A stretch of DNA of 64,000 nucleotides from a virus. Below, one piece after another: positions 12,619 to 61,835 of this stretch (position 1 is its first letter; every line of letters starts with the position of its first letter). The notes beneath the pieces were generated by a model. The model had not been told where the DNA came from. It made no database searches and worked only from the letters and a program-made list of their open reading frames with translations. The DNA lies in the IMG/VR virus record IMGVR_UViG_3300044949_001928, positions 1-64,000 of that record. One strand, 5' to 3'. A program made the translations under genes and the position numbers.

Positions 12619-12630
12619 GGAAACCTGGGG
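12619..12630 (+). promoter_or_regulatory. Start-associated sequence 1 (GGAAACCTGGGG)
   Basis: Member of the GGAAACCTGAGG family; 16 nt separate it from ATG 12647. Confidence 0.75.
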
Positions 12631-12646
12631 CAGATCCTCTCCGCCG

Positions 12647-12940
12647 ATGGCTGTTCCTGATCGCGTACGGGCCCAGATCAAGCGGCTAGGACTGGAGGGC
12701 GTGAACAAGCCGAGGCGCACACCAGGGCACCCCACCAAGTCACACGTTGTCCTGGCGGCCGAGAACGGTCGGTACCAGGTGCTGAGGTTCGGTCAGCAAG
12801 GTGTCAGCGGCAGTCCCGCGAAGAAGGGTGAGAGCAAGGCCGCGAAGACTCGGCGGGCGTCATTCAAAGCCCGGCACGCGAAGAACATCGCAAAAGGGAA
12901 GATGAGCGCGGCGTACTGGGCAGATCGTGTAAAGTGGTGA
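12647..12940 (+). CDS. Conserved phage small basic protein
   Basis: A 97-residue basic protein with two stretches that I recall from many phage genomes, including cyanophages: RRTPGHPTKSHVVLA near residue 23, with RFGQQGV after it, and SFKARHAKNIAKGKMSAAYW near the end. The role is unknown. It usually lies near head genes, as it does here. It is the first gene with a GGAAACCT element. Confidence 0.75.
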   Translation: MAVPDRVRAQIKRLGLEGVNKPRRTPGHPTKSHVVLAAENGRYQVLRFGQQGVSGSPAKKGESKAAKTRRASFKARHAKNIAKGKMSAAYWADRVKW

Positions 12941-12960
12941 GCATCGGTCGGCTTCCCACC

Positions 12961-13179
12961 ATGCTCGCCCCGTCACTGTTTCTCTTGAGGCTCACATCCC
13001 TCTGCGGGGGGTTTGCCTTATTCCGCTCTGCAACGCTGCTTTACACCGGGCGTAGCGAGATGCCGTCGCCTGATTGCCTCTCGTTCTACCTTTTGTACTA
13101 CCTCCTGCAGGCTGCCGTGGCACTTTGTGTCATGCTGGCGTGGGGGTTTGTGGAGGAGAAGATGGGGGCGAGGGCATGA
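12961..13179 (+). CDS. Small membrane protein with two TM segments
   Basis: About 72 residues from ATG 12961, chosen for its CCCACC leader; a GTG at 12937 is possible. Two hydrophobic stretches (LFLLRLTSLCGGFALF and FYLLYYLLQAAVALCVMLAW) suggest a membrane hairpin. It is coupled by ATGA to the next gene. A holin-like role is possible but the context is not lytic. Confidence 0.5.
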   Translation: MLAPSLFLLRLTSLCGGFALFRSATLLYTGRSEMPSPDCLSFYLLYYLLQAAVALCVMLAWGFVEEKMGARA

Positions 13180-13508
13180 GCGCCGCAAGCAACGGAGGCC
13201 CTGTTCGGCCGGGTACTGCTTGGTCCGATCCCGACGAGCGGGAAGCCTTCTTCCCTGCTGCTGGAGCAATTCGGGCTACTGAGCGTGTTCTCACCGAAGA
13301 CTTGCAACCCGACCCGATCGCGTTGAGTGAGCGGCTACCAGGGGGTGGCGACATTCTCAAGGCCGGGCCGTGCTCTCTCGCCTGGCTTGGCCGTGAACTC
13401 CCAGGGGGGTACTGGGAGTGGGAGCTGGCAGACCTTTGCTTCGCCACTCTTTACACCCACTGGCTCCCCGCCAGCGTCCGATACCTGCCGGCGAGGGTGG
13501 AGCTGTGA
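13176..13508 (+). CDS. Hypothetical protein, ends in duplicated sequence
   Basis: A 110-residue soluble protein from ATG 13176. Its last eight codons lie in a 25-bp direct repeat found again at 14052-14076, so its C-terminus (LPARVEL) is the same as that of the 23-codon remnant at 14005. The family is unknown. Confidence 0.55.
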   Translation: MSAASNGGPVRPGTAWSDPDEREAFFPAAGAIRATERVLTEDLQPDPIALSERLPGGGDILKAGPCSLAWLGRELPGGYWEWELADLCFATLYTHWLPASVRYLPARVEL

Positions 13509-14008
13509 CCGAACACGACCCCACAGGCCGCGACCAGCACGAACCCGGTGCGAAGCTCGATGCCGGCAAGCCTCGCCCCGCCCTGGTGCTGGGCGGTTTC
13601 GTTCACGCCCTGAAGGCTGTCACTGAGGTCGGCACGTTCGGTGCCGCGAAGTACACCGACAACGGCTGGCGAACAGTCCCTGATGGCCCGCAGCGCTACA
13701 CCGATGCCATGCTCAGGCACTGGCTGGCCGATCCTGACGGCCTTTCGTCGGACCTCGACAGTGGCCTGGCCCATGCTGCGCACCTGGCATGGAATGCCCT
13801 GGCGCGACTGGAGCTGATGTTGGCGGAGAAGCGGAAGCTGCAAGCGATGTTGGACGAGGCGTTGGGGCAGAGCAACGCGGAGAGCGCTGAGCGATCGAGG
13901 CGCCGTGCGCCGGATGCCGGGTTGGGCCCGCTGCCAACCAGGGAGTTGGCGGACCGCCTGCCCAAGCTGGGCCAGATCGACTGGAGCCGGGTCGGGCCGT
14001 TCCTATGA
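13505..14008 (+). CDS. dATP/dGTP diphosphohydrolase-like protein
   Basis: A 167-residue protein from GTG 13505. Its N-terminal 100 residues match the dATP/dGTP diphosphohydrolase N-terminal domain (MazZ-like, DUF5664): GAKLDAGKPRPALV, EVGTFGAAKYTDNGW, AMLRHWLA and DSGLAHAAHLAWNALARLEL. This family is all-helical and MazG-related; it strips pyrophosphate from purine dNTPs. In some phages it belongs to 2-aminoadenine genome pathways, but no PurZ or DatZ is visible in this window. The C-terminal tail is unrelated and charged. Confidence 0.65.
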   Translation: MTEHDPTGRDQHEPGAKLDAGKPRPALVLGGFVHALKAVTEVGTFGAAKYTDNGWRTVPDGPQRYTDAMLRHWLADPDGLSSDLDSGLAHAAHLAWNALARLELMLAEKRKLQAMLDEALGQSNAESAERSRRRAPDAGLGPLPTRELADRLPKLGQIDWSRVGPFL

Positions 14009-14076
14009 CCCTCACCCTTCGCCGCGGCGACTACCTGGAGGCGCTGCGCACCCTGCCGGCGAGGGTGGAGCTGTGA
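14005..14076 (+). pseudogene. DNA methyltransferase N-terminal remnant (23 codons)
   Basis: Starts with ATGA coupling and reads MTLTLRRGDYLEALRTLP, the common N-terminus of phage adenine methyltransferases (GDxLExLRxLP, normally followed by a DPPY motif). It then runs directly into the 25-bp direct repeat and stops. The most economical reading is a methyltransferase gene lost by recombination, with the repeat at the breakpoint. Confidence 0.5.
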
Positions 14077-14339: not shown

Positions 14340-14343
14340 CCAA

Positions 14344-14517
14344 ATGACTACTGAACCCAGCAACTCCCCGATAAGCCTCGCGGATCTCATTGACGCCGAA
14401 AACCCTCCGCAAATGTACTACGTGCCGGATTCCAGGGGCTTCGAGCGGAGAATTCGCCGACACATCCGCGCAAACCGTCAAACCCCAGGCCCCACCGCGC
14501 CAACCCCGGAAACCTGA
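14344..14517 (+). CDS. Small basic-tailed protein, unknown
   Basis: A 57-residue protein from ATG 14344 with a good Shine-Dalgarno (GGAGGGGG). The C-terminus is basic (ERRIRRHIRANRQ). Its stop codon is the TGA inside the start-associated sequence of the portal gene, so gene end and element are fused. Confidence 0.6.
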   Translation: MTTEPSNSPISLADLIDAENPPQMYYVPDSRGFERRIRRHIRANRQTPGPTAPTPET

Positions 14518-14519
14518 GG
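14508..14519 (+). promoter_or_regulatory. Start-associated sequence 2 (GGAAACCTGAGG)
   Basis: Lies 19 nt ahead of the portal start GTG 14539 and supplies the stop (TGA 14515-14517) of the previous gene. Confidence 0.8.
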
Positions 14520-14538
14520 CAGAACCTGGCCTAGGCGC

Positions 14539-16002: not shown

Positions 16003-16016
16003 TGGCGGTGAAGGAT

Positions 16017-16028
16017 GGAAACCTGAGG
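16017..16028 (+). promoter_or_regulatory. Start-associated sequence 3 (GGAAACCTGAGG)
   Basis: Exact consensus; 19 nt before ATG 16048. Confidence 0.8.
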
Positions 16029-16047
16029 GGACCCCAACTTTCCCACC

Positions 16048-16284
16048 ATGGACGAGTTCACCACCGCGGCACAGGAGCCTGACGAGGCGATGCAGGAGCC
16101 CTTTGAGGCGCTGGCTGACGACATCGAGGAAACTATTGCTACCTTCACTACCATATTCCATGACATCGACGTTCGCGATGTTCTCAAGGCGTTGATTGCT
16201 GTCGCTATGGGGTACCTGCACGCGGAAGACGATGAGGATGACGAAGATGACGAAGATGACGAAGATGACGAAGGCGAGGTGTAA
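16048..16284 (+). CDS. Acidic protein with Asp/Glu repeat tail
   Basis: A 78-residue, strongly acidic protein. A helical body (about 15-60) ends in a tail of repeated DED units encoded by a 9-bp tandem repeat (gatgacgaa type, 16230-16275). Acidic head-associated proteins can act as DNA mimics or scaffold partners; the role here is unknown. It lies between portal and MuF-type protein. The repeat tract is prone to slippage. Confidence 0.65.
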   Translation: MDEFTTAAQEPDEAMQEPFEALADDIEETIATFTTIFHDIDVRDVLKALIAVAMGYLHAEDDEDDEDDEDDEDDEGEV

Positions 16285-16287
16285 CAA

Positions 16288-17434: not shown

Positions 17435-17450
17435 GGCGGGGCGATGGGGT

Positions 17451-17903
17451 TTAGGCAGTGACGGGCTGCGAGTCGTAGGTGGCCACCGCGGGGAGGGAAG
17501 GCTCGGGGACGGGGCCGGTCGCCAGCAGGGGCACTACGTTCTCCTCATGGATCACGAGGCAGTTGTTGACGCGGAGCAGCTTCACCATGGCACCAGGCTC
17601 CAGGCCAAGCTCACCGATGTAGGCAGCCCCTACGACAACGGCGCCCCTGGGGCCAACGGTGGCCTTCCAAGACGGGGGTTTGCCGGTCCTGCCGGTGCCG
17701 GAACTGCGGGCGCTGGGGGTGATGAAGCCCAGTGCGATATTGAGAGCGCGGGTGAAGCCCCTGGTATCGGGCTTGTCGCCCTTGGTGGTGTAGCCACATG
17801 CCGTTGCCAGGTCCTCGACCGGCAGCGGTTTGATGCTGTCAACCTTGGCAATGAGATCCTGCCCAGTCAGGCGAGGGGCGGGCGTGGTGGTTTCTTCGGT
17901 CAT
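17451..17903 (-). CDS. cyAbrB-type transition-state regulator
   Basis: A 150-residue protein of the cyanobacterial AbrB family. The helical N-terminal part has LTGQDLIAKVDSI, then ACGYTTKGDK, RGFTRALNIALGF. A basic linker leads to the AbrB-type swapped-hairpin segment (ATVGPRGAVVVGAAYIGELG). In cyanobacteria cyAbrB proteins regulate carbon/nitrogen balance and other global programmes; almost every host carries two. A phage copy could compete with or replace the host regulator. It stands alone on the minus strand with its own promoter. It is the clearest host-range marker in the window. Confidence 0.75.
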   Translation of the reverse strand: MTEETTTPAPRLTGQDLIAKVDSIKPLPVEDLATACGYTTKGDKPDTRGFTRALNIALGFITPSARSSGTGRTGKPPSWKATVGPRGAVVVGAAYIGELGLEPGAMVKLLRVNNCLVIHEENVVPLLATGPVPEPSLPAVATYDSQPVTA

Positions 17904-19123: not shown

Positions 19124-19368
19124 GGGAGAAGGTTCCTACATCTGCGGCCGGAGGCGGAAACATGAAGCACCCGCCTCTGTCGTCGATGCCTCTCTACGTC
19201 GGCATCACAACCATGTCCTTCGCGGCCGTGCAGCAAGCGCCGACCGTCCTGGGGGTGAGTCTGACCCTGCCGCCGGAGATCCCCGAGGGTGGCGAGCTAA
19301 AAGTGCTGTGGCACGAGGACGACCACATCCGCCAGGAACGCAAGATCGTTTGGGTGAGGGAGGCGTGA
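19120..19368 (+). CDS. Hypothetical protein (82 aa)
   Basis: ATG 19120 follows GGAGGAGGA and overlaps the preceding stop. Beta-rich C-terminal half (GGELKVLWHEDDHIRQERKI). Unknown. It is the last rightward gene before the leftward basic-protein cluster. Confidence 0.55.
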   Translation: MREKVPTSAAGGGNMKHPPLSSMPLYVGITTMSFAAVQQAPTVLGVSLTLPPEIPEGGELKVLWHEDDHIRQERKIVWVREA

Positions 19369-19373
19369 TGCCC

Positions 19374-19427
19374 TCACCCACCACCGGCGAAACGACCGCT
19401 GCTGTCGCGCTTGCAGGTACGGGCCAT
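19374..19427 (-). pseudogene. 17-residue stub of the MARTYKRD family
   Basis: Reads MARTCKRDSSGRFAGGG and stops. It copies the first 17 residues of the basic proteins at 20618, 21446 and 22043. It has its own start-associated sequence 18 nt upstream. It looks like a truncated paralogue that kept only the start cassette. Confidence 0.6.
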
Positions 19428-19445
19428 GGGAACCGGAGGAGTCTG

Positions 19446-19457
19446 GTTCAGGTTTCC
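19446..19457 (-). promoter_or_regulatory. Start-associated sequence 4 (GGAAACCTGAAC)
   Basis: Minus strand; 18 nt before the ATG of the 17-codon stub at 19427. Confidence 0.7.
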
Positions 19458-19650: not shown

Positions 19651-19777
19651 GGGAGAGGGTGCGATCGAGGACGATGCGGGCGGAGCCATCGGGGCGGACG
19701 GCGACCACTCGATGGCGGCGGGGCTCGCCGTTACGGGGGCGGAGCCGGCGGCCTACGGCGGTGACGGGGGAGGGCAT
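19595..19777 (-). CDS. Small basic protein, unknown (60 aa)
   Basis: ATG 19777 is placed by a start-associated sequence 20 nt upstream and by a CCCACCACCCC leader. Arg-rich (RRLRPRNGEPRRHRVVAV). It overlaps the DUF6496-like gene by 56 nt in a different frame. No family is recognised. Confidence 0.45.
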   Translation of the reverse strand: MPSPVTAVGRRLRPRNGEPRRHRVVAVRPDGSARIVLDRTLSHGQEETDQSPGQGPHRDG

Positions 19778-19797
19778 GGGGTGGTGGGAGGGGGACG

Positions 19798-19809
19798 GCT
19801 TAGGTTTCC
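19798..19809 (-). promoter_or_regulatory. Start-associated sequence 5 (GGAAACCTAAGC)
   Basis: Minus strand; 20 nt before ATG 19777. Confidence 0.65.
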
Positions 19810-19811: not shown

Positions 19812-20618
19812 TCAGCGGCGGCGAGAGCGGGGTTCCCTGAATCCGGGGCGCAACATTTGGTCAAGCTCGATATTCGCGACTGGATCTCCGGTCCTGTAAA
19901 CCTTCTGCGCTCTAATAGCTGTTGCTCGCTTTTGCCACTGCTTTTTATTTTTTCTCATGACCCGCGGTCCCACCTCAAGCTGGTTTCGCATTGCACGCTC
20001 TAGCCTTGCATTCCCGCCGCTGGAGGGTGTCGGCTTCAGCTTAATTCTTGCTGCTTGTTGCTCTGCATTTCTTGAGCGTTCTTTTAATCTATTAACTTCA
20101 TCCCGCAATTTTACAGCCTGCTGCATTTTTGCGTGCATTCTATCCCGTTCTGCAGTTTTTACTCCTTGAGTGTAGAAAGCGCTATCCTTGGACCTGTATT
20201 CTTTCTCTAATCTTGCAATTTTCACTTCTAATGCCTTGGCGCGGCTTGCACTTTTGACAGCCCCTTTTTCCAGTGATTGCTTCCTGGCCTCTGCACTAGA
20301 AATCGGCGTTGCCGGTCTTGCCGCTTTCCCCTTCAACGCCCCCGGCTTCAACCCCCTCGGCTTCCCGACAACACCCGACCGCTGCAGCGACATCCTCGCC
20401 ACCACCGCGCCACGCTTGTTCCCTGCCGCGGTCTTGAGCCTGCCCCCTCGGGCCGTGGCGCCCTGGCCACCTACCGACGTGATTCGCCCCGCGTTGTCCC
20501 GTGTCAGGCGGTTCCTCCCTCTGGTGGGAGGCTTGGCAGCCTTTGCCTCGCCCCCGCTGGAGCTGGTGCCACCAGAGGCGAAGCGCCCCCGGTTATCACG
20601 CTTGTAAGTTCTGGCCAT
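19812..20618 (-). CDS. MARTYKRD-family basic protein A
   Basis: A 268-residue, strongly basic protein. The N-terminal 75 residues carry the family cassette: MARTYKRDNRGRFASGG, then NRLTRDNAGRITSVGGQG, ATARGGRLKTAAGNKRGA. The rest is a helical, coiled-coil-like region (ALEVKIARLEKEYRSKDS, KLRDEVNRLKERSRNAEQ) encoded by clearly A/T-richer DNA (about 19890-20260). Two paralogues (20649 and 22043) share only the N-terminus. Its place near portal and tail genes suggests a minor virion protein, but that is not shown. Confidence 0.65.
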   Translation of the reverse strand: MARTYKRDNRGRFASGGTSSSGGEAKAAKPPTRGRNRLTRDNAGRITSVGGQGATARGGRLKTAAGNKRGAVVARMSLQRSGVVGKPRGLKPGALKGKAARPATPISSAEARKQSLEKGAVKSASRAKALEVKIARLEKEYRSKDSAFYTQGVKTAERDRMHAKMQQAVKLRDEVNRLKERSRNAEQQAARIKLKPTPSSGGNARLERAMRNQLEVGPRVMRKNKKQWQKRATAIRAQKVYRTGDPVANIELDQMLRPGFREPRSRRR

Positions 20619-20637
20619 GGCGTAGGCGACGGTCCTA

Positions 20638-20649
20638 CCCTAGGTTTCC
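20638..20649 (-). promoter_or_regulatory. Start-associated sequence 6 (GGAAACCTAGGG)
   Basis: Minus strand; 19 nt before ATG 20618. Confidence 0.75.
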
Positions 20650-21446
20650 TACTTCTTCCTCCGGCCGCGCTTTTTCTTTGGTGGGGGGTTCGCGTTGCGG
20701 GGGCCTGGAATGATGTTGCTGGCAGCCTTCTTTTTCGGCTTACCAGGGCCCATGAACGCCATCTGGTTTCCATAGATCTTCAGGGCCTTCTTACCCTTCT
20801 CGCTGCCCTTTGCCGCCAGTGCAGCGGCTCTCTCGGCACGCCTGCGGACGACTGGCATCCCGTACTTTGTGCCCATCGACTTGATGGTTATTCCGGCCAG
20901 GTCGCCGTCAATTCCCTTCTTGTTTCGATCGGCCATGGCTCGGGCAACCATTCGCCCCGTCCAGTTCTTCGTCTCATTAGCACGGCCTTTCAGTGATTTG
21001 AGGTCATCACTCATCCCCTTGACGGCGCCTCGTATCTGCCGGTCACCTTGCGCCATCCGTCCGTCGAAAGTAGCGGGCCTGTAGGGGCGGATCGTGTTGA
21101 CGGGCTTCTTGAGCAGGGGTGTGCCGGTGCGCTTGATCGTGTTCTTCGCGCTGGCCTTTGGCCGGCTTCCGCTCCCTCCCTTGCTGACCGGCCGCCGCAC
21201 CTTCCCGCTCGGGCCCGCTGGCCGCTGCACCTTGGCCAGTTGCGTGGCCCGCTGCTTGCCGCTGGCGGTGCGCAGTCTGCCGCCCCTCGCCGTTGCGCCA
21301 TTGCCGGTGCCCGTGATCCGCCCAGCGTTATCCCGCGTCAGGCGGTTCGCGCCCTTGCTCACAGCCCTGGCGGCGGGCTTAGCGCTGCGAGTGCTCCCAC
21401 CAGAGGCGAATCGGCCGTTGGCATCGCGCTTGTATTGCCTGGCCAT
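20649..21446 (-). CDS. MARTYKRD-family basic protein B
   Basis: A 265-residue basic protein with the same N-terminal cassette (MARQYKRDANGRFASGG, NRLTRDNAGRITGTGNGATARGG split over two segments). The C-terminus differs from the paralogues: helical with MVARAMADRNKKGIDGDLAG and RRRAERAAALAAKG, and a Lys/Pro-rich end (PPPKKKRGRRKK). Its stop codon lies next to the start-associated sequence of protein A. Confidence 0.65.
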   Translation of the reverse strand: MARQYKRDANGRFASGGSTRSAKPAARAVSKGANRLTRDNAGRITGTGNGATARGGRLRTASGKQRATQLAKVQRPAGPSGKVRRPVSKGGSGSRPKASAKNTIKRTGTPLLKKPVNTIRPYRPATFDGRMAQGDRQIRGAVKGMSDDLKSLKGRANETKNWTGRMVARAMADRNKKGIDGDLAGITIKSMGTKYGMPVVRRRAERAAALAAKGSEKGKKALKIYGNQMAFMGPGKPKKKAASNIIPGPRNANPPPKKKRGRRKK

Positions 21447-21462
21447 CAGCGCCCCATCGCTA

Positions 21463-21496
21463 CATCAGGTTTCCAGGGAGAAGCGGAAACCTGAGG
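21463..21496. promoter_or_regulatory. Divergent pair of start-associated sequences 7 and 8
   Basis: Minus copy GGAAACCTGATG (21474-21463) is 16 nt before ATG 21446. Plus copy GGAAACCTGAGG (21485-21496) is 16 nt before ATG 21513. Confidence 0.8.
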
Positions 21497-21512
21497 CAAC
21501 GGTCACCGTGTC

Positions 21513-22014: not shown

Positions 22015-22026
22015 GGAAACCTGAGG
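22015..22026 (+). promoter_or_regulatory. Start-associated sequence 9 (GGAAACCTGAGG)
   Basis: Exact consensus; 16 nt before ATG 22043. Confidence 0.8.
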
Positions 22027-22042
22027 AGACCGGGGGAGATGG

Positions 22043-22783
22043 ATGGCACGCACCTACAAGCGCGATAGCAGGGGGCGATTCGCTAGCGGTGGCAGCGCAC
22101 GGAGCACCCCGAAGACCCGCGTGGTGACGGGTGCGAGGGCTGTGAGCGGCGGCAAGAACCGCCTCACCCGTGACAATGCTGGCAGGATCACCAGTGTTGG
22201 CGGCCAGGGTGCTACCGCTCGCGGGGGGCGGCTGCGAACCGCCAGCGGAGCGAAGCGCGGGGCTGTAATAGTGAGGATGAACAGCACCGGCGGGAAGCTG
22301 CGGAAGCCGATCGGCGGGGGCGCCCGGATCAGCCGCGCTGAGCCCCTGGCGACCGGCGGCACCCTGGCGGCCCGCTCGTCCCTGGCCCGTGCGAGGCGGA
22401 AGCTGGCCGAGAACGCCACGCCAGCGCAGCGGGGAGCGGTCACCAGGGCGAAGAAGTACGCGGCGCAGTCCTATGACAGGAACACGCAGCCGAAGACGTT
22501 TGGCAGGCCCGCCAGTGTGATGCGGAAGCGGCCACCGGAGGCGCCGCTGCGATGGCAGGTTGGGGGTGGGAAGGGGGAAAACATGCGCGATAAAGATACT
22601 CGTCAGCAAAAAATTAATCAAGAAAGCGTTAAATCACTGCTAGCGGCAGGCCGCGCAGTAGCAGTTTATCCGAAAAAGGGAATCGTTGTAATCGACGGCT
22701 TTCAAAGGCAAAAAGTATCTAAAGCAATGGCGGCAGCTTTAGGCAAAATAGTCAAAGAACATTTACCGTCTCGCCCCCGCTAA
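22043..22783 (+). CDS. MARTYKRD-family basic protein C
   Basis: A 246-residue paralogue on the plus strand. The N-terminal cassette (MARTYKRDSRGRFASGG, NRLTRDNAGRITSVGGQG, ATARGGRLRTASG) is nearly identical to protein A. The last 70 residues (from about MRDKDTRQQKINQESVKSLL) are encoded by A/T-rich DNA with AAA/AAT codons (22580-22780), unlike the GC-rich first part. This sharp change inside one frame suggests a domain joined from another source. Role unknown. Confidence 0.65.
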   Translation: MARTYKRDSRGRFASGGSARSTPKTRVVTGARAVSGGKNRLTRDNAGRITSVGGQGATARGGRLRTASGAKRGAVIVRMNSTGGKLRKPIGGGARISRAEPLATGGTLAARSSLARARRKLAENATPAQRGAVTRAKKYAAQSYDRNTQPKTFGRPASVMRKRPPEAPLRWQVGGGKGENMRDKDTRQQKINQESVKSLLAAGRAVAVYPKKGIVVIDGFQRQKVSKAMAAALGKIVKEHLPSRPR

Positions 22784-23908: not shown

Positions 23909-23920
23909 GGAAACCTGAAG
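23909..23920 (+). promoter_or_regulatory. Start-associated sequence 10 (GGAAACCTGAAG)
   Basis: 20 nt before GTG 23941. It argues against the earlier in-frame GTG at 23902, which lies upstream of it. Confidence 0.75.
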
Positions 23921-23940
23921 CACCACCACCGTCCCCTGCC

Positions 23941-24708
23941 GTGAAGCTCCCCTTCCGCACCTCGCCAACCATTACCACCGAAACCGTTTCGGCGGTGGTC
24001 AATGGCCAGAAGCTGGAGCTCGACTTCCCCGTCATCGGGGCCATCACCGTGGGGGAGTCGAACGTCATCAACGATCACCAGCATCGTGCCGTCTTCTTCC
24101 GGCTTTGCATGGAACTGGCGGATGCCATGCTCACCGAAGGGACTGCTGAGCGGATCCTGCAGGAACGCGGCGACACCGCCGATGGGGCCACCGCTGAATC
24201 CACCGCCGAACTTTCGGCGCTCCGGATTCTCTCCCGCACCGCCGGGATCCCCACCCAGCTCGATGCAGCCGAAACCCGCGCGCGGATCCATCACAGGGGC
24301 CTGGTGACCAGGGCTAGGACTGAGATGGACACGGAGAACGCAGCGCTCCAGTGCCGAACCGCAACGGCGCTCATCTCCCGCCGGTTGCCCGGTTGCGAGG
24401 GCTGGCAAGAGGCCGATACCGAGGGGTTGCCCCTCGCGCTCATCGCGGCGATCAACGAATTCGCGGCGCGGGAACAGAACGGCGGCGCTCCGGAGCGCAC
24501 GGCAGAGGAGATCCTCGCGGAGATGGCCGAAACGCTGGGAAAGCGCGATCCGGCCGGGGACCCCTCGACCCACCAGACTGGGAAGACCTCTTCTGGCGAT
24601 GCCGGGAACTCTGGCCCCATGCCCTCGAGTTCGGACCCGATCGATTCGCCGACCTCCCAGCCCCCTACGTCTACCAGGCCATCGCGAAAGGCGAAGAGCG
24701 ACGGCTGA
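23941..24708 (+). CDS. Tail assembly chaperone, short form (gpG-like)
   Basis: About 255 residues from GTG 23941. The N-terminal two thirds are a structured domain (KLPFRTSPTITTETVSAVV, later NEFAAREQNGG). The last 55 residues past the slip site are low-complexity Ser/Thr/Pro, as expected for a by-product frame. In lambda-like phages the short form and the frameshifted long form chaperone the tape measure. Position before the tail genes fits. Confidence 0.65.
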   Translation: MKLPFRTSPTITTETVSAVVNGQKLELDFPVIGAITVGESNVINDHQHRAVFFRLCMELADAMLTEGTAERILQERGDTADGATAESTAELSALRILSRTAGIPTQLDAAETRARIHHRGLVTRARTEMDTENAALQCRTATALISRRLPGCEGWQEADTEGLPLALIAAINEFAAREQNGGAPERTAEEILAEMAETLGKRDPAGDPSTHQTGKTSSGDAGNSGPMPSSSDPIDSPTSQPPTSTRPSRKAKSDG

Positions 24709-25187: not shown

Positions 25188-25341
25188 TCTCGTCGTAAAC
25201 GTGCTTGACTGCAGCTTCGGCGGCCATGACGGTGGCGTAGTACCCGAGGCTCCAGCGCCGGCCGCGGTACCAAACCCTTGCCTGATACGGCCGAGAAGAC
25301 GCCAACGGGTGAAACGAAACCCCTCGCGGGTAGCAGCTCAC
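24973..25341 (-). CDS. AP2-domain DNA-binding protein, antisense
   Basis: A 122-residue protein from GTG 25341. Residues about 5-50 match the AP2/ERF fold: RGVSFHPLASSRPYQARVWY, RRWSLGYYATVMAAEAAV and YDEI. Phage AP2 domains bind DNA and often accompany homing endonucleases, but none is seen here. Its 3' 215 nt overlap the frameshifted chaperone on the other strand. A minus-strand start-associated sequence lies 24 nt before the start, which supports it as a real gene. Confidence 0.6.
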   Translation of the reverse strand: MSCYPRGVSFHPLASSRPYQARVWYRGRRWSLGYYATVMAAEAAVKHVYDEISRWEAWSVPPPTLLPLIRRREAAREAARSTPPPQGDETPEPGPLPSNPQSGTRSTHQGKAWGPTGWRPRR

Positions 25342-25365
25342 AGGATCGGGGCGCGGTGGGGGTTA

Positions 25366-25377
25366 CCACAGGTTTCC
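25366..25377 (-). promoter_or_regulatory. Start-associated sequence 11 (GGAAACCTGTGG)
   Basis: Minus strand; 24 nt before GTG 25341 of the AP2 gene. Confidence 0.7.
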
Positions 25378-26284: not shown

Positions 26285-26517
26285 ACCTGCTCGCTCATCA
26301 TCGCCCCAGCCGTTTCCGCGGTCGGGGCTTTTTGCTGCCACCGCGGTGGCAGGTTCTGCCGCATCGCCCAAGCAGTGGCGGCACGCTGCACCTGCCAGGA
26401 CTGCAGAAGCATTTTGCACAGCCTTTGAAGCACCGCCGGGTCTGTGGTGTTGTCGATCGCGCGGCTCATCCGCTCCAGCTCGAAGGACTGGGCGGTGGTC
26501 AGGGACATGCCGTCCAT
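26278..26517 (-). CDS. Small helical protein, antisense, unknown
   Basis: A 79-residue, all-helical protein from ATG 26517 (ATG 26508 also possible). Core: TTAQSFELERMSRAIDNTTD, then WQVQRAATAWAMRQNL. The layout resembles short helical proteins that I recall from cyanophages and picocyanobacteria, but I cannot name a family. It has a start-associated sequence 18 nt upstream. Its end overlaps the terminator of the tail gene on the other strand. Confidence 0.55.
   Translation of the reverse strand: MDGMSLTTAQSFELERMSRAIDNTTDPAVLQRLCKMLLQSWQVQRAATAWAMRQNLPPRWQQKAPTAETAGAMMSEQVQ
26303..26333 (+). terminator. Rho-independent terminator after major tail gene
   Basis: GCCCC...GGGGC stem with an inner CCG/CGG pair and a 2-nt internal loop, followed by five T (26329-26333). 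Confidence 0.75.
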
Positions 26518-26535
26518 CGGCGGGTGGCGGGGTTC

Positions 26536-26560
26536 CTGCAGGTTTCCCGGAAACCTGGGG
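26536..26560. promoter_or_regulatory. Divergent pair of start-associated sequences 12 and 13
   Basis: Back-to-back copies one base apart: minus GGAAACCTGCAG (26547-26536) 18 nt before ATG 26517, and plus GGAAACCTGGGG (26549-26560) 16 nt before GTG 26577. Confidence 0.8.
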
Positions 26561-26576
26561 TAGTACCGGTGCCACC

Positions 26577-27002
26577 GTGACGCTGCCGACGACTGCTGAG
26601 GGGATCTACGACCTCCTGGTGGGCGATACGGCCGTGCTCGCTGCACTGGGCACCTACACCAGCGACACGGGCGCCACGGGCCCCGCCATCGCCGTGCTGG
26701 CCGCGAATGAGAAGCTCCCCGAGGGGGTGGCCGTCAGCGGGATTGAACTCAAGATCACCCGCATCCCAGGGTTCGCCCCGCAGGCTCTCATGGATGCCAC
26801 CGTGACGAATCCGACATGGCGGATCTACGCGATCGGCTGGCAGACGGCTGACGGGCTCCAGGCGATGGCGGAGCGGCTCATGGCGCTGTTGCCAGGCGCC
26901 ACCGCGGCAGATGTGGCCGGTGACGCCCCTGGCAGCGGGATCGGGGTGCTCGATCAGGTAGTCATCCGCTGGACGAATCCAACAATCGCGGTAACAGCAT
27001 GA
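26577..27002 (+). CDS. Tail-region protein, tail-terminator candidate
   Basis: A 141-residue protein starting at GTG 26577, fixed by the start-associated sequence. The pattern (TTAEGIYDLLVGDTAVLAALG, WRIYAIGW, AERLMALLPG) resembles short phage tail-terminator proteins, and it is coupled to the tape measure by ATGA. The call rests on pattern and position only. Confidence 0.45.
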   Translation: MTLPTTAEGIYDLLVGDTAVLAALGTYTSDTGATGPAIAVLAANEKLPEGVAVSGIELKITRIPGFAPQALMDATVTNPTWRIYAIGWQTADGLQAMAERLMALLPGATAADVAGDAPGSGIGVLDQVVIRWTNPTIAVTA

Positions 27003-30000: not shown

Positions 30001-31060
30001 TAAGCGTGGATCCGAGGATATCGAGCGGCGGGCGCTAGAGTTCGCCATTGAAGGGGCAAAAGAGCGATTTAGGATAGAAGGAGAAATGCTGCGCCTTAAG
30101 CAGGCTCAGCAAGTCATTGAAGCCCAAAATGCCGAAAGAGCATCAAGGCAAAACGCAAACAAGCAACAGGGCGACCTTCTTGGCCTGAAGCGCCAAGCAC
30201 TTGACCCAAGTCTTACACCCGATCAACTGTCAAACCTGGAAGAAGCTATTCGGCTGCAGCAACAATCTGTGGAACTTGCCAAGCAGCAGCAAGACGCAGA
30301 CCGAAGCAGATACCAAGGCCTAGCAGGTATTCAGTCTTTAGAGCGCGATACTCTTCAGATGCAGCAGCTGTCAACCGCTAACGGATTTCGTGCGCAAGCC
30401 GCTGCGAAGGGATGGGAAAGCTCACTTCGCGGGCCACTGGATCGGCTGGACTCAGCAGCACAGGCCAGTGGTACGATTGCAGACGGCACTAGATCTATCT
30501 CTCGTGGTTTTATCTCCGCAGGCGGACAGGTTATTGAGTTTCGCGATACGGTTTATGGCATTAAAGATGCAACCGAAACAACCAGCCGCGCAGCTGGCTC
30601 CCTTGCCGGCGGATACGCTAACGCCAACGTGGAAGCCAAAGCCCTGCTCGATACCCTGCAGAAACTTGCAGCTACGAAACCCGCACGCTGGGCTGGTGGC
30701 CCCGTTGATCCGTCAGTCGCGTACCAGGTCAATGAGCTTGGCCAGGAATCATTCCTCTCCCCTGGTGGGATGCTCAGCCTCATCCACGCCCCCGCACGCG
30801 GCACCTGGCGCCCACCAGCGAGGGGTACCGTCCTACCGGCTGGCGTGACGGCTGGCCTCAAGGCGCAGGGTGCCTTTGGCGGGGCCCCCGCGGCGATCAG
30901 CGGAGGGGGCAGCGCCGCGGGCGATGCGATCGGAAACCTGGGGCAGGCCGTGCGGGAGCTGCGGGCAGAGGTGCGGGAGTTGCGCATGAAAACCTGGACG
31001 ACCGAGGTCCGTGTGCCGGGCAACGCCGCGATCCTCGGCGCGATCGGCGGGCTATCCTGA
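26999..31060 (+). CDS. Tail tape measure protein
   Basis: A 1353-residue protein. The TP901-type core is at about 150-430 (RAAGAAGETGAYERIAATID-like, VAQLYTELVRGGMSIDQANA, GSLFGGEDD-like). Hydrophobic stretches at about 480-625 (AAAAILLSGGLIA, LPLIVAFAKLSAGVAALAGA) fit membrane insertion. A long coiled coil spans about 640-1150 and a Gly/Ala-rich C-terminus ends it. It sets tail length and crosses the envelope on ejection. A start-associated-like sequence lies near its 3' end. Confidence 0.92.
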   Translation: MSNGDFTYTVGGDFSQILRGFAQLETEAGNVGKSIGNELDKGVQEGVVSFGKLQKELRRLKDERAKLPVDSSEYREAEQRIAAIGKAIGDLKRKKVELDADPAISDLRVLDAAVQGIAFSLSNAVVDAAARAMAALGGLIGDYAKLDTEIRKAAGAAGETGAYERIAATIDKVGIDAAGTTLEVAQLYTELVRGGMSIDQANASLSAIVRGAEATGTSFDTMGRNVSASLKGFGLEAEDATRVVDAMVQGANASASSVEGMGMAFKYAAPVARILGLSIEDLGITVGLLTNAGIDASEAGVTLRNGLSKLASAAPQTGANVQKLSGQAADAARAMRTLGVDIYNADGTLKPMQETLLQLKGAFDKLAPAAKIRLAASLFGGEDDGTKWLALLNQSEEEIKKMSATMANTKGATDTARDAMQGFELLMKQLGGTVDSINNTLAGTAATALLPLINAANAAVGAIALLPGPIKQTAAAAILLSGGLIAARTSALLFQQAMNAAAVREAAQGILQLGGALRGRLAADLAIAAAAWGRMTLAVVAFDRASISIPSVAMAVKASLVSAATAGTTAFKGLTATVTSGALLQGLQAITYSARAAIAGYLPLIVAFAKLSAGVAALAGAYLLWKGTMEGADQVSKGLESTNKSVDESIAKLGDSFGKQTVAVVKTRNAFQELYRAQTEGNALNRLGKEMDSLQAKFDDTTDRAVFFYTQLKGSGSISAEQVEQAKKMASALDVQAKAARNVASSYRVQADAESAKGNETLAQALRMRANQLEATARVQGNLAESTRELTGLTKAQTEAVVNAEQAERSRLATAKLQVTQQEVRIARRREEGQITAEQAREEERLLELRAAQAELEVQRGKVQAGGGAGGQAELDARQRVAELEKRIAELKVQGTENALRNSQREYDIAVETLNIARTRLDLETQAANLIASRIRAQQDYGNAELAFRAAYNDLVQSEFNVDRARQDYAIQAAENQLQLMRLRGVGAGDIAAQEAYIADLKRGSEDIERRALEFAIEGAKERFRIEGEMLRLKQAQQVIEAQNAERASRQNANKQQGDLLGLKRQALDPSLTPDQLSNLEEAIRLQQQSVELAKQQQDADRSRYQGLAGIQSLERDTLQMQQLSTANGFRAQAAAKGWESSLRGPLDRLDSAAQASGTIADGTRSISRGFISAGGQVIEFRDTVYGIKDATETTSRAAGSLAGGYANANVEAKALLDTLQKLAATKPARWAGGPVDPSVAYQVNELGQESFLSPGGMLSLIHAPARGTWRPPARGTVLPAGVTAGLKAQGAFGGAPAAISGGGSAAGDAIGNLGQAVRELRAEVRELRMKTWTTEVRVPGNAAILGAIGGLS
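30932..30943 (+). promoter_or_regulatory. Start-associated-like sequence inside tape measure gene
   Basis: GGAAACCTGGGG within the coding region, followed in frame by ATG 30988 and GTG codons. No separate gene follows closely. It may be chance, a relic of a fused gene or an internal start. Confidence 0.35.
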
Positions 31061-31063: not shown

Positions 31064-31834
31064 ATGCCGGTATCCACCGCCACAATCAGCTACGGCGGGA
31101 CGACCTTCACGTTCCCCAACCTCACAGAAGCGCCCCTCTCACTGGAGGTGTCCGACGCCAGCAGGGGCCGGGTTGCTGAATCGCTGCGGGTGGTATCGCT
31201 GCTCAAGAAGGAGCAGGCGGGGACGTTGTGGACGCTCTGCAGGGCGTGGAGCGCTGCGAAGCTGCCGGAGGAGGATGCCGTCAAGACGGGAACCCTCGGC
31301 GCCACCGTGTCGGTCACGGCGACGGTTCCCGGCTGGTTTACGTGGTCAGCTCGCCCCTGCTGGATCATCGACGGGCCCTCAAGCACCGCGGCGGGGTCCT
31401 ACCTGCGGACATCGATCGGCCTGGTGGATGCTGCCGCTCAGCTGGCGATTCGCCTCCGGGAGATCGAGGAGGGGCTCGAGCAGGAGGAGGCGTTGGGCCT
31501 CGGGACGATCACCCTGGGCGGCGCGGTCATCAACCTGACGGCCTACGCCGAAACACTCGGGGACCTGCCCCAGGGGAACCTCAGCCCCACGGGGGCCCAT
31601 GTGCTCTCTGGCCCGCTGGTGGTGGAGGAGGTGCGAGAGATCAGGGGCTGGGTGACGGCTGCGCATCTCACCAGCCTCAGATCCTGGGTGATGACTTCCG
31701 TTGCCAGCACGCCAACAGTCGGGGCCTGGTGGCCGCGATCGTGGAGCACACCTGAGGCGTTTCTGCGCACCAACGCTGGGGTGGTGGCCGTCGCCTACCG
31801 GGTGCAGCTGACGGTGTTTAAGGTTCGCGGATGA
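31064..31834 (+). CDS. Distal tail protein candidate
   Basis: A 256-residue protein directly after the tape measure, where distal tail proteins usually lie. Beta-rich, starts TATISYGGTTFTFPNLTEAP. It is coupled to the hub gene by ATGA. I do not recognise the family from sequence. Confidence 0.5.
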   Translation: MPVSTATISYGGTTFTFPNLTEAPLSLEVSDASRGRVAESLRVVSLLKKEQAGTLWTLCRAWSAAKLPEEDAVKTGTLGATVSVTATVPGWFTWSARPCWIIDGPSSTAAGSYLRTSIGLVDAAAQLAIRLREIEEGLEQEEALGLGTITLGGAVINLTAYAETLGDLPQGNLSPTGAHVLSGPLVVEEVREIRGWVTAAHLTSLRSWVMTSVASTPTVGAWWPRSWSTPEAFLRTNAGVVAVAYRVQLTVFKVRG

Positions 31835-34851: not shown

Positions 34852-34863
34852 GGAAACCTAGAG
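34852..34863 (+). promoter_or_regulatory. Start-associated sequence 14 (GGAAACCTAGAG)
   Basis: 22 nt before GTG 34886, with CCCACCACC directly ahead of the start. Confidence 0.75.
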
Positions 34864-34885
34864 CAGGAACACCAGACCCACCACC

Positions 34886-37634: not shown

Positions 37635-37780
37635 CCGACCCCATCCCCACCACCGAACTCGTGCCGCTCGAAGCCCGCGAAACCGCGATGCTGCTGGCCT
37701 TCGCCAACCGTCAGCGGCTACTGCGCGAGGAAGATCGCCGACGCGTCATCCAGGAAGCGGTACGACTGGCGAAGACTTAG
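37631..37780 (+). CDS. Very small helical protein, unknown (49 aa)
   Basis: ATG 37631 overlaps the previous stop. Charged and helical (FANRQRLLREEDRRRVIQEA). Its stop codon TAG ends where the next start-associated sequence begins. No family is recognised. Confidence 0.6.
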   Translation: MTDPIPTTELVPLEARETAMLLAFANRQRLLREEDRRRVIQEAVRLAKT

Positions 37781-37791
37781 GAAACCTGGGG
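37780..37791 (+). promoter_or_regulatory. Start-associated sequence 15 (GGAAACCTGGGG)
   Basis: 25 nt before ATG 37817 of the scaffold gene. Confidence 0.75.
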
Positions 37792-37816
37792 TGTACCGCG
37801 GCGTGATGCCAAAGAC

Positions 37817-38605: not shown

Positions 38606-38665
38606 ACTGGTGGTAAGCGACGTTGGCGTGATGCCCTCCGAGCCCACGGCGTGATGCCACCAGTA
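38606..38665 (+). other. Structured leader of the capsid gene
   Basis: TACTGGTGG (38606-38614) pairs with CCACCAGTA (38657-38665), and the loop holds two direct copies of GGCGTGATGCC. It fills the 110-bp gap before the capsid gene. It may be an mRNA-stability or attenuation structure. Confidence 0.4.
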
Positions 38666-40182: not shown

Positions 40183-40359
40183 ATGAGCTACGCCATTCCA
40201 ATCGGCATGACCCCCGAACAGGTCGCCCAGATCATGAACCCCGACACCAAACCCGCGGAGCCCGGTATCGCACCGGAGGACGCCCAGCAGGATCCCGACC
40301 TGGTGGGTGAACGCAAGCGCCCGCGCCGTGCGGAGAAGCCTCCGGAGGCGGAAACCTGA
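40183..40359 (+). CDS. Small charged protein, unknown (58 aa)
   Basis: ATG 40183. Starts MSYAIPIGMTPEQVAQIM; ends basic (ERKRPRRAEKPPEAET). Its stop codon TGA (40357-40359) lies inside the next start-associated sequence, as for the gene ending at 14517; both proteins end in ET. Confidence 0.55.
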   Translation: MSYAIPIGMTPEQVAQIMNPDTKPAEPGIAPEDAQQDPDLVGERKRPRRAEKPPEAET

Positions 40360-40361
40360 GG
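40350..40361 (+). promoter_or_regulatory. Start-associated sequence 16 (GGAAACCTGAGG)
   Basis: Exact consensus, but only one base before ATG 40363; one of two copies that break the usual spacing. Confidence 0.7.
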
Positions 40362-40362
40362 C

Positions 40363-40710
40363 ATGGAACCGATCAGCATCGCATTCCCGATCCAGCAAGG
40401 CGCACCGGCTTCGTTGCATCTTCGCTGGCGCAAAAGCGACGGGCCTGTTGTGCTGACCGGTTATACCGCAAACTGGGAGATATGGGACCCGAAGCGACGG
40501 ACTAAGTACGCGGAAGTAACTGTAGAATTTCCTAACCGCAACGATGGGCAGATCCGCGGTCGCTTAACTGCAGAGCAAACCCTGGCAATTCCCACCAGGG
40601 CAGGGAGGGCTGTTCATGATCTGCACTTGTTCCCACCTTCTGGCGACTCGTTTTACCTGGTTCACGGGTCAGCGGTTGCAACGCCTCGCGTTTCTCACGG
40701 TGCGCCATGA
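40363..40710 (+). CDS. Virion-region protein, unknown (115 aa)
   Basis: A 115-residue beta-rich protein (IQQGAPASLHLRWRKSDGPV, IRGRLTAEQTLAIPT). The pattern resembles small phage proteins encoded near tail fibres. Coupled by ATGA to its neighbour. Confidence 0.55.
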   Translation: MEPISIAFPIQQGAPASLHLRWRKSDGPVVLTGYTANWEIWDPKRRTKYAEVTVEFPNRNDGQIRGRLTAEQTLAIPTRAGRAVHDLHLFPPSGDSFYLVHGSAVATPRVSHGAP

Positions 40711-45561: not shown

Positions 45562-45573
45562 GGAAACCTTGAG
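45562..45573 (+). promoter_or_regulatory. Start-associated sequence 17 (GGAAACCTTGAG)
   Basis: One base before ATG 45575; second copy with atypical spacing, and with an extra T. Confidence 0.6.
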
Positions 45574-45574
45574 C

Positions 45575-45934
45575 ATGAGCGCCCTCACCCCCGACTACCG
45601 CTACGAACTCGACCGGGTAGTGCGCGTCATCGACGGCGACACCATTGAGGTGGTCGTGGGCCGAGACGTGGGCTTCCGCTGCCGCCCCACCTGGCAGATC
45701 CGGGTACGGCTGGAGGGGGGCGATACCCCGGAAGTCCGCGGTGGCACGCCAGCGGACCAGGTGCGGGCCCACCAGGCCAGGGAATTAGCGGCGGCGTGGC
45801 TTGCGAGGGGGGCGGCGATCGTGGCCACCAGCGGGCGGACAACCTTCGAGCGGTGGCTCGCGACGATCACCCGCGGAGAGGAATCCCTGGCGGACGCGCT
45901 CGTGCTCGCCGGGCTGGCGCGGAGGGTGGGATGA
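45575..45934 (+). CDS. Staphylococcal-nuclease-like (SNc) protein
   Basis: A 119-residue protein. It has DRVVRVIDGDTIEVVV, RVRLEGGDTPEVRGG, then AAAWLARG and TFERWLATITRGEESLADAL, the order of the thermonuclease fold including the IDGDT and R-x-x-G-x-D-TPE motifs. It could be a secreted or virion-borne nuclease; there is no signal peptide. A TTG at 45569 is an alternative start. Confidence 0.75.
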   Translation: MSALTPDYRYELDRVVRVIDGDTIEVVVGRDVGFRCRPTWQIRVRLEGGDTPEVRGGTPADQVRAHQARELAAAWLARGAAIVATSGRTTFERWLATITRGEESLADALVLAGLARRVG

Positions 45935-58619: not shown

Positions 58620-58633
58620 GATCGGGTGGGGCG

Positions 58634-58655
58634 GTGTGGCTCTCACACTGTAGCA
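58634..58655 (-). promoter_or_regulatory. Early promoter with GCCACAC leader
   Basis: Leftward TGCTACAGT (58655-58647) then GCCACAC (58640-58634), 15 nt before ATG 58619. Confidence 0.6.
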
Positions 58656-60072: not shown

Positions 60073-60110
60073 TGTGTGAAGCGTGAATTGCAGGGCGAGG
60101 GTGAGCGTCG

Positions 60111-61274
60111 TCAAGCCGCCGGAGCGGCTGTGGTCATGGCGGCCAGGTCTGCCGGGTCGGCGAGGCCCTGGCCCCAGGTGGCGGGGGATTCGTCGTCGGG
60201 GTCGGAGCCGACACCGGACTCGTCGGCCAGGTCGACATCGTCCTCGTGGTGATCGGGAACGGTGGTGGCTGGAGCGAGAGAGTGGCTCAACCGGTTGGTA
60301 GCAGCGGCGGCGGCAACGCGACGAGCCACCGCCTCCTCCTCCGCTGCTTCCCCGGCTCGCGTGCAACCCACTCCCAGGTCGGCGCCGGTGCGGCTGTCCT
60401 GCCCGGCGTTCCAGGCCCGGATTGTCGCGGGGAGGTTTAGGGCTTGGTTCAGGATCTGGGCCTGCAGCTTGGGAGGCATGGCCTCCAGCGGCTTCCCATC
60501 ATTGCACTGCGTCAGAAGCGCTTGCATCCCGATCGCAGTCAGCCCCACGGCGCGGGCTTTGGCCCGGATCTGATCGGGAATAGACATCGGAGGGGCGCCT
60601 TCGTCAAGCCAGGCGGCCATTTCGGCGCCCAGGGGCTCGCCTGGGTTTTGCAGGTACTGGTCCTGAAACTTGCCGGAGCGGTCTTTGATGACCGTGAGAA
60701 TATGTTCGGTCGACAGTTCTAGCAACATGTCAAATTCATATTCAATGCCTTTACCTTGCTCTGGGCTCAGACCAACCCGGACAGGCTTGTCCTTGCCGTT
60801 GCGGTCTTTCTCGGTTGTCCACTCTGTTTTGGATCGCATGGTTGCGATCACGTGGCCAGGGTAGTCAAGAATTGCGTCAATAAGTTTCCTTTGCTTGGGA
60901 GTGCCATCGCTCCAGGCACTCCAGGTGTTGCCTTTGTACTTGGCCTTGGCAAGCGCGTCAACCTCAGTCAGGAGCTCCTGCCAGGCGTGGGTAAGGCTGT
61001 CAATGATCAGCACTCCATAGCCCGCTTCGCCCGCTTCGTGAATTGCGGTCACATAGTCACTAATTCGATGCTGGCCGGTACCCAGGTCGCAAACATCAAA
61101 ATCAAACCGGTCCGCGTACTTACTTGCAGTACGGCGCTCGCTGTCGATGACGGCAATGCGGCCACCGATGCCAGTGGCAAGGCGGAGTGATGTGAAAGTC
61201 TTGCCGGCCCCTGACGGCCCAAAAATTGCCGCTCGAAGTTTTGCGGCTTCTTTGGTGGCCTTTTTGAAAGCCAT
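60111..61274 (-). CDS. Sak4/AAA_24-type RecA-like ATPase
   Basis: About 387 residues from ATG 61274. P-loop FGPSGAGKT near residue 18, Walker B GVLIIDSLTH near 88, and a downstream basic ATPase core (KGIEYEFDMLLEL). This is the phage nucleotide-binding family that in several phages acts with SSB in recombination (Sak4). A long acidic, Ala-rich C-terminal tail (about 300-387) is extra and may be partly unstructured. The promoter lies at 61286-61307. Confidence 0.8.
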   Translation of the reverse strand: MAFKKATKEAAKLRAAIFGPSGAGKTFTSLRLATGIGGRIAVIDSERRTASKYADRFDFDVCDLGTGQHRISDYVTAIHEAGEAGYGVLIIDSLTHAWQELLTEVDALAKAKYKGNTWSAWSDGTPKQRKLIDAILDYPGHVIATMRSKTEWTTEKDRNGKDKPVRVGLSPEQGKGIEYEFDMLLELSTEHILTVIKDRSGKFQDQYLQNPGEPLGAEMAAWLDEGAPPMSIPDQIRAKARAVGLTAIGMQALLTQCNDGKPLEAMPPKLQAQILNQALNLPATIRAWNAGQDSRTGADLGVGCTRAGEAAEEEAVARRVAAAAATNRLSHSLAPATTVPDHHEDDVDLADESGVGSDPDDESPATWGQGLADPADLAAMTTAAPAA

Positions 61275-61285
61275 GGTCTTTTGCG

Positions 61286-61307
61286 GTGTGGCCAGCACAT
61301 CATAGCA
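61286..61307 (-). promoter_or_regulatory. Early promoter with GCCACAC leader
   Basis: Leftward TGCTATGAT (61307-61299) then GCCACAC (61292-61286), 11 nt before ATG 61274. Confidence 0.65.
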
Positions 61308-61345
61308 CGGCGGTTCAGGATCCGCATCGTCTGACCCGCCGCCGC

Positions 61346-61783
61346 TCACCCGTGGGCGCCAAACGGTCCCGACACGATCGCCTGCGCCTCCTCGACGGAT
61401 CGGGCGACACCAGCCAGCCCGCCAAGGCCGCGGACCATTTGGATGAAACTCGCCTGCTCCGGTGTCGGGCGGGTCGCTGCCTTGAACTCAACCGCCGAGA
61501 ACACCGCCACCCGGCGGCCAACGTGCTCGGGCAGGATCAGCCGCGAGGACAGGCCGATGCTATCCGAGCTGCCAGGGCACAAGCCGGCACGCAGGGGGCG
61601 GGCGGCGCGGATCACAATGTCCCCAGGGCGGAGCGACGCACCTACGGCGCCGCGGTTGCTATCGGTCACCTTGTCGGTTCTCCCAACCCAGCCGGTCCCC
61701 ACGTTGTTCCGGTACATCCTGGTATGTTCGCCGGCCATTGCCAGAATCGCTCTTTGTTGCACTTCGTGCTCACGGCTGGCCAT
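61346..61783 (-). CDS. VRR-NUC nuclease
   Basis: About 145 residues from ATG 61783, chosen over 61807 for its CACCACC leader. EHEVQQRAILAMAGEHTRMY at the start, GDIVIRAAR, SDSIGLSSRLILPE and AVFSAVEFKA follow the order of VRR-NUC nucleases, with an Asp and ExK-type metal ligands. These cut branched or flap DNA. The GC-rich insert near 60-75 is longer than usual. Confidence 0.65.
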   Translation of the reverse strand: MASREHEVQQRAILAMAGEHTRMYRNNVGTGWVGRTDKVTDSNRGAVGASLRPGDIVIRAARPLRAGLCPGSSDSIGLSSRLILPEHVGRRVAVFSAVEFKAATRPTPEQASFIQMVRGLGGLAGVARSVEEAQAIVSGPFGAHG

Positions 61784-61823
61784 GGTGGTGCTTGGTGGGA
61801 ATGCCATGGTGCCACAACCAACC

Positions 61824-61835
61824 GGAAACCTGGTG
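61824..61835 (+). promoter_or_regulatory. Start-associated sequence 18 (GGAAACCTGGTG)
   Basis: 17 nt before GTG 61853; this spacing favours GTG 61853 over GTG 61835. Confidence 0.65.

Follow-up and report, generated by a model that had tools for sequence, protein, structure and literature searches.

A start-associated motif of an uncultured cyanophage as the probable late promoter of a phage sigma factor

We analysed a stretch of 64,000 nucleotides (hereafter called the window), which is part of the 65,114-base IMG/VR record IMGVR_UViG_3300044949_001928. It contains a short oriented motif, GGAAACCT, directly ahead of the start codons of many genes, and this motif is very probably a late promoter composed of a single -10/-12 element, which is read by a phage-encoded sigma factor of the SigB/SigF/SigG type on the host polymerase. 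The element would have the general form C-C-GG-(A/C)-A-N-N-C-T, with GGAAACCT as the version used in the clade of the window, and would be followed by a short discriminator GAGGC. Transcription would begin at a purine 13 bases after the first G, with no -35 or -32 box involved. Host RNA polymerase would read the element with the help of the sigma factor encoded at positions 11780-12613 of the window (plus strand), which appears to have lost a recognisable region 4. In one class of genes, the start codon would be the first transcribed base, giving a leaderless message (offset of exactly 13). In the other class, the leader of the message would measure about 13 nt or more (mostly 15-18 nt; 15-24 nt in the window), and Shine-Dalgarno sequences are rare in it.

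Position of the motif relative to start codons

The octamer GGAAACCT was found 20 times in the window (14 plus, 6 minus), whereas 1.73 matches are expected by chance, close to the two estimated in the initial annotation of this DNA. None of 100 shuffled sequences reached 20 matches, and the reversed word did not occur at all. A recount confirmed that 18 of the 20 copies (12 plus, 6 minus) lie directly 5' of a start codon in the orientation of the gene. Counted from the first G of the motif, the start codon has an offset of 13 in two copies (40350 and 45562) and of 28-37 in the other 16, which is equivalent to the previously reported gaps of 1 nt and 16-25 nt when these are counted after a 12-mer. 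In an automatic count, 17 of the 20 copies were followed, at an offset of 13 or 26-37, by the start of a frame with 50 or more codons, compared to 13.7% of random positions (P = 1.7e-12). The eighteenth copy, at 19457, belongs to a start whose frame ends after 17 codons. The two copies that are not start-associated are located at 30932 and 45316; the latter lies inside a gene, lacks the consensus tail and looks like a chance occurrence. The motif is thus not equally frequent away from starts. The genes that carry it in the window include those for portal and scaffold, genes of the tail and head regions and a putative holin gene ahead of the endolysin gene, and no copy was found among the replication-side genes of the early array. 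This absence, the divergent pairs and the overlaps with TGA stop codons are as originally described, and the proposal that the motif is a late-gene element of a cyanophage that fixes several start codons is supported.

At its end, the consensus is two bases longer and reads GGAAACCTGAGGCA, and it is preceded by CC. Over 96 sites it reads CCGGAAACCTGAGGCA and forms a single block; no other conserved positions were found from -60 to +80 around these sites. Base 12 of the consensus is a pyrimidine (Y) in 88% and base 13 a purine (R) in 89% of the cases. Y-R is the usual -1/+1 pair at a transcription start. In genes with offset 13, the A at the end of the consensus doubles as the A of the ATG.

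For statistics on the offset, we used 210 core hits from the window and ten related genomes and genome fragments, a set that includes several related and therefore non-independent genomes. In 15 of these hits an ATG is located at offset 13, compared to none at 12 and two at 14 (P = 6e-9). The mode is offset 28 with 38 hits (P = 2e-35), followed by 12, 13 and 16 hits at offsets 29, 30 and 31, while offsets 14-25 have about two per position, as does unrelated sequence. Start codons are thus placed either at exactly offset 13, as seen in no fewer than 13 motif copies, or 26 nt and more from the first G. This matches the prediction of a transcription start at base 13. Such a start would produce messages beginning with AUG at offset 13 and leaders of at least 13 nt in all other cases, leaders of 1-12 nt being avoided. 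An example is the gene at 26577, whose orthologues in the relatives L017, G002, G004, G007, G008, G009 and G010 have an offset of exactly 13, while in the window and its near twin it is 28. This switch fits a start site better than a ribosome spacing.

In the initial annotation, transcription had been excluded and a role at the RNA level or in recombination had been preferred. An RNA-level element for translation initiation would be read in the leader as GGAAACCUGAGG by the ribosome, an RNA-binding protein or a small RNA, and would replace the Shine-Dalgarno sequence. The fixed distance to the start codon speaks for such an element, as do the C-rich leaders with few Shine-Dalgarno words (8% of motif genes vs 25% of other genes). 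However, this low share of Shine-Dalgarno words also fits a promoter, and two preferred distances 15 nt apart, either of which can be used by orthologues of one gene, would be odd for the placement of a ribosome. Divergent genes also need promoters: the start codons of the two divergent pairs are only 66 and 59 bp apart, and each gap holds two back-to-back copies of the motif, so that little room is left for any other promoter. Since the motif moreover drifts to the -10 box GGCATACTAG in relatives and follows the sigma gene (see below), we regard a translational element as quite unlikely. If the motif were a recombination site or the boundary of a gene cassette and travelled along when genes are copied, its location next to arrays of paralogous genes would be explained. 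Yet in every relative it precedes genes that are unrelated and unduplicated (portal, scaffold, tail), its flanks are not conserved and its distance to the start is constrained, which makes this explanation the least credible of those considered here. Start-site offsets, Y-R end, drift to GGCATACTAG and co-occurrence with the sigma gene led us to reject both proposed roles. The exclusion of transcription had rested on picturing the motif as a -35 box, and it is better read as a -10/-12 element.

Other interpretations of the consensus were also rejected. A -35 box with a -10 box further on would require a second conserved block, which does not exist. A sigma-54-like GG-N10-GC arrangement is one base short in its spacing, and sigma-54 is not known from cyanobacteria. 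A pair of the ECF type (GGAAC + GTC) lacks a conserved GTC, and an RNA hairpin is incompatible with base 5, which varies freely without a change in a partner. Host sigma-70 promoters were found three times in the late region (2.9 expected), and part of the early region was also at chance level.

The motif and the sigma factor in related phages

Related contigs were located via the portal protein and via the motif. Eight of them contain 6 to 16 exact copies of GGAAACCT each, with the reversed word occurring zero times or once, and the strand of the motif follows that of the genes, with counts such as 0/16 and 10/0. Ahead of orthologous genes, the relatives retain the motif or a near variant of it (GGAAAGCT, GGCAACCT or GGAAAACT). 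Its loss from homologous genes of close relatives, which had been named as an outcome that would contradict the motif's significance, did not occur.

In the cultured phages S-CRES3, S-CBS2 and P-SS2, the exact octamer is present in 1 to 3 copies, which is not above the expectation from the reversed word, and an enumeration of eight-letter words did not find anything. The kinship of their element became visible only with a degenerate form. When all gaps before annotated genes of S-CRES3 were inspected, GGAATACTAG, GGCATACTAG, GGAAGACTAC or GGCAACCTAG was found ahead of late genes, 28-35 nt before the deposited starts. If the first start is required to lie at 26-35, the pattern GG(A/C)ANNCT occurs 23 times in S-CRES3 (reversed word: 0), 21 times in S-CBS2 (reversed word: 1) and 19 times in P-SS2 (reversed word: 4). 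The element of these three phages is GG(A/C)ANNCTA, e.g. GGCATACTAG. With only two hits vs one for the reversed word, KBS-S-2A gave no signal, nor was a motif signal found in S-H1 and MED4-184. Three parts do not vary across the drifted forms: the GG, the A that is second in the hexamer, and the CT, whose T is hexamer position 6. In ordinary -10 boxes, the bases at positions 2 (A) and 6 (T) are the most conserved, and AT-richer versions such as GGCATACTAG resemble ordinary -10 boxes. No conserved position that could represent an upstream -35/-32 box was detected in the window clade or in the cultured phages. It seems likely that a GC-rich promoter consisting of a -10 element only has drifted from GGCATACTAG to GGAAACCTGAGG, that it fixes the transcription start either right at the start codon or 13 nt or more ahead of it, and that late translation proceeds largely without Shine-Dalgarno sequences.

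The protein encoded at 11780-12613 matches a PHROG sigma factor family (5e-21). Among 12 members of this sigma group, the SigBFG and SigF models (NCBIfam TIGR02980 and NF005644) were matched by all 12 (best 2.3e-23), and Pfam recognised region 2 in 12 of 12 and region 4 in none. The best PDB profile match is a chain of Staphylococcus aureus SigB. The predicted domain 2 superposes on structures of sigma domain 2 with Z-scores of up to 12.3 and a root-mean-square deviation of 1.8 over 77 residues. A fold search with the C-terminal part yielded no additional family, a result that should not be taken as a sign of a new fold. On the basis of its sequence, we classify the protein as a relative of the SigB/SigF/SigG class that is not a standard member. 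Region 4 is the part of sigma-70 that reads the upstream box, and a sigma factor without a recognisable region 4 matches the missing upstream box of the motif.

Each motif-bearing genome has one homologue of this sigma factor, with an identity of 36-46% except in the near twin G001. In S-CBS2, S-CRES3 and P-SS2 the homology spans about 118 N-terminal residues. The gene is located just 5' of the portal gene in the window and in G004, G007, G008, G009 and G010; a copy of the motif follows 5-44 bases past the sigma gene in several of them. For a scan of the collection, a profile of nine sigma proteins proved too diverse, but narrower alignments worked. The search by sigma protein alone led to 46 loci. 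In 42 further sigma loci, which had not been used in building the motif, GGAAACCT was found 59 times vs 3 for the reversed word and the core 168 times vs 31, with starts again at 28-34. No such sigma factor was found in KBS-S-2A, S-H1 and MED4-184, the phages without a motif signal, one of which has a similar terminase and an RpoD-like sigma factor. The motif thus tracks the sigma gene, a co-variation that the initial annotation had suggested examining.

The motif might also be a promoter that is read by another factor, either a group 3 sigma of the host or an unrecognised phage polymerase or activator. Host SigF recognises a similar -12 box, and single-block promoters are typical of T7-type polymerases. 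However, no polymerase gene was detected among the window proteins that were searched, and host SigF promoters also require TAGGC at -32, which is absent here. An AbrB-like gene (17454-17903) is an unlikely reader, as it was detected only in closer relatives, whereas the sigma gene is present in all. We therefore consider a reader other than the phage sigma factor unlikely. Operators such as the stoperators of Cluster A mycobacteriophages, which are described as transcriptional (PMC3203893), would keep a prophage silent when occupied by a repressor. Like the motif, they are oriented, intergenic, present in many copies and often located at a stop-start junction. Neither the two classes of offset (exactly 13, or 26 and more) nor the Y-R end would be explained by this reading, and the window proteins searched included no recognisable integrase or repressor. 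In addition, a search of 84,980 bacterial and archaeal species genomes did not find relatives of the sigma factor, although only two peptide patterns were used, so that absence is not proven. A repressor operator is thus very unlikely.

Some observations weigh against a promoter read by the phage sigma factor. The sigma protein scores far below the curated cut-offs for SigF and SigB. Its C-terminal helices were modelled with moderate confidence, and a strongly diverged region 4 is possible. The element is GC-rich and differs in this respect from the AT-rich downstream stretch of T4 late promoters. The designation of the motif genes as late derives from gene content, and the genomes behind the offset statistics are, as mentioned, partly related. 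Some high-GC genomes, when taken singly, are not significant vs the reversed control under the loosest pattern. GGNAANCT performs better, with 20/51 vs 1/16 for the control in the window and 18/27 vs 0/11 in G010.

Individual copies and neighbouring genes

On the plus strand, the first putative promoter (GGAAACCTGGGGCA, 12619-12632) begins six bases past the stop of the sigma gene and would start transcription at 12632, ahead of the gene at 12647. The copy of GGAAACCTGAGGCA at 14508-14521 has a predicted start at 14521 and precedes the portal gene (14539). The following copies belong to the genes at 16048 (GGAAACCTGAGGGG, 16017-16030) and 21513 (GGAAACCTGAGGCA, 21485-21498), the latter being the divergent partner of a minus-strand copy (GGAAACCTGATGTA, 21461-21474) for a gene of the MARQYKRD family at 21446. 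Further plus-strand copies are found ahead of a MARTYKRD family gene at 22043 (GGAAACCTGAGGAG, 22015-22028) and the gene at 23941 (GGAAACCTGAAGCA, 23909-23922). The second divergent pair consists of GGAAACCTGGGGTA (26549-26562) for the gene at 26577 and GGAAACCTGCAGGA (26534-26547, minus) for the gene at 26517. GGAAACCTAGAGCA (34852-34865) is located upstream of the gene at 34886, and GGAAACCTGGGGTG (37780-37793) precedes the scaffold gene (37817), which is followed by the capsid gene (38695). In the copies at 40350-40363 (GGAAACCTGAGGCA) and 45562-45575 (GGAAACCTTGAGCA), the last A is the A of the ATG at 40363 and 45575, respectively, and leaderless messages are predicted. GGAAACCTGGTGTG (61824-61837) lies ahead of the putative holin gene (61853) and the endolysin gene (62125). 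The remaining minus-strand copies are GGAAACCTGTGGTA (25364-25377, gene at 25341), GGAAACCTAGGGTA (20636-20649, MARTYKRD family gene at 20618), GGAAACCTAAGCCG (19796-19809, gene at 19777) and GGAAACCTGAACCA (19444-19457), which belongs to a truncated MARTCKRD paralogue of 17 codons starting at 19427.

The 3' end of the tape-measure gene contains a copy at 30932-30945 (plus), which lies 132 nt ahead of the start of the gene at 31064. The full motif is present, and G002 and G004 share it at the corresponding position, with the codons GGA AAC CTG identical. Its role is uncertain: it could be an internal promoter for the gene at 31064 or reflect conserved peptide coding.

Several genes with their own copy of the motif form arrays with a common N-terminal tag. 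In the window these are the genes at 19427, 20618 and 21446 (minus) and 22043 (plus), and similar arrays occur in G007, G010 and other relatives. The tag is MARTYKRDxxGRFASGG in one clade and MAGNGSRxGSGRxAGG in another, and similarity among the tagged genes is mostly N-terminal. Possibly, it is a common targeting tag of structural proteins. The member at 19377-19427 (minus) has been cut to 17 codons and has retained the promoter motif.

Another repeated sequence, GGCGTGATGCC, stands 5' of the scaffold and capsid genes (37800-37810, 38625-38635 and 38648-38658, the last two before the capsid gene) and is also found at 19362-19372. It is not enriched in the window as a whole. In its place, relatives and the cultured phages S-CBS2 and S-CRES3 have GGCGYGAYGCC, which could form a 4-bp hairpin with a change from G-U to G-C.

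The large terminase (9670-11082) resembles those of KBS-S-2A and S-H1 (54-56%), whereas portal and sigma factor resemble those of S-CBS2, S-CRES3 and P-SS2. Apart from the near twin G001, no match to this terminase was found in the other motif-bearing relatives; the genome is mosaic at this gene. The AbrB-like regulator (17454-17903, minus) is of the cyanobacterial type and lies between head genes in opposite orientation.

Implications and comparison with known systems

If our interpretation is correct, the phage group 3 sigma factor that has been known since P-SS2 gains a concrete recognition sequence and a regulon, which can be tested in cultured phages. Start sites can be predicted to the base in dozens of uncultured genomes, start codons can be corrected with the motif, and sequence alone suffices to tell late genes from early ones. 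A series of promoters that drift alongside their sigma factor becomes available as well, and, next to T4 gp55, the motif would represent a second way of dispensing with a -35 box. The sharply fixed leader lengths would be a natural test of the shortest leader that cyanobacterial ribosomes accept.

The initial annotation had also likened the motif to the start-associated sequences of Cluster K mycobacteriophages. These are located 3-7 bp from the start, pair with 16S rRNA via AGGAG and occur in the non-structural half of the genome (PMC3203893). Both are short, oriented, repeated before start codons and sometimes overlap the previous stop, but the kinship did not hold for any defining feature tested. 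Instead of a 3-7 bp spacing, the motif has offsets of 13 or at least 26 from its first base. Its GAGG mostly ends at least 16 nt before the start and is thus not in the position of a Shine-Dalgarno core, and it is found at portal, scaffold and tail genes.

T4 late promoters are 8-bp, -10-only elements that are read by the domain-2 sigma factor gp55 and are AT-rich downstream of the box (PMC2988020). The pair of gp55 and TATAAATA is analogous to the motif and its sigma factor. In both systems there is a single 8-bp element about one turn from the start (as measured here from the predicted start), without a -35 box and in many late copies, and domain 2 is the recognisable part of the phage sigma. 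In contrast to the TATA box of T4, however, the element is GG(A/C)ANNCT, or GGAAACCTGAGGCA in the window clade, it has no AT-rich stretch downstream, its sigma factor is related to SigF/SigB, and a leaderless subclass is predicted.

Promoters of cyanobacterial SigF combine a TAGGC box at -32 with GGTAA at -12 (PMC2758279), and SigB promoters contain GGG(A/T)A(A/T) (PMC8346170). GGTAA corresponds to GG(A/C)AA at -13 to -9 of the predicted start and is used by the same sigma class, while the -32 box has no counterpart in the motif. GG-N-A/T-A, the -12 feature of group 3 (SigF/SigB) promoters, is present in the window clade as GG(A/C)AA. The closest precedent on the side of the protein is ORF 003 of P-SS2, a group 3 sigma factor whose gene is adjacent to that of the large terminase and which according to the authors likely recognises sequences of a particular regulon (PMC2784084). 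This gene is homologous to the sigma gene of the window. The main text of that paper does not propose a recognition sequence; the one found here is GG(A/C)ANNCT.

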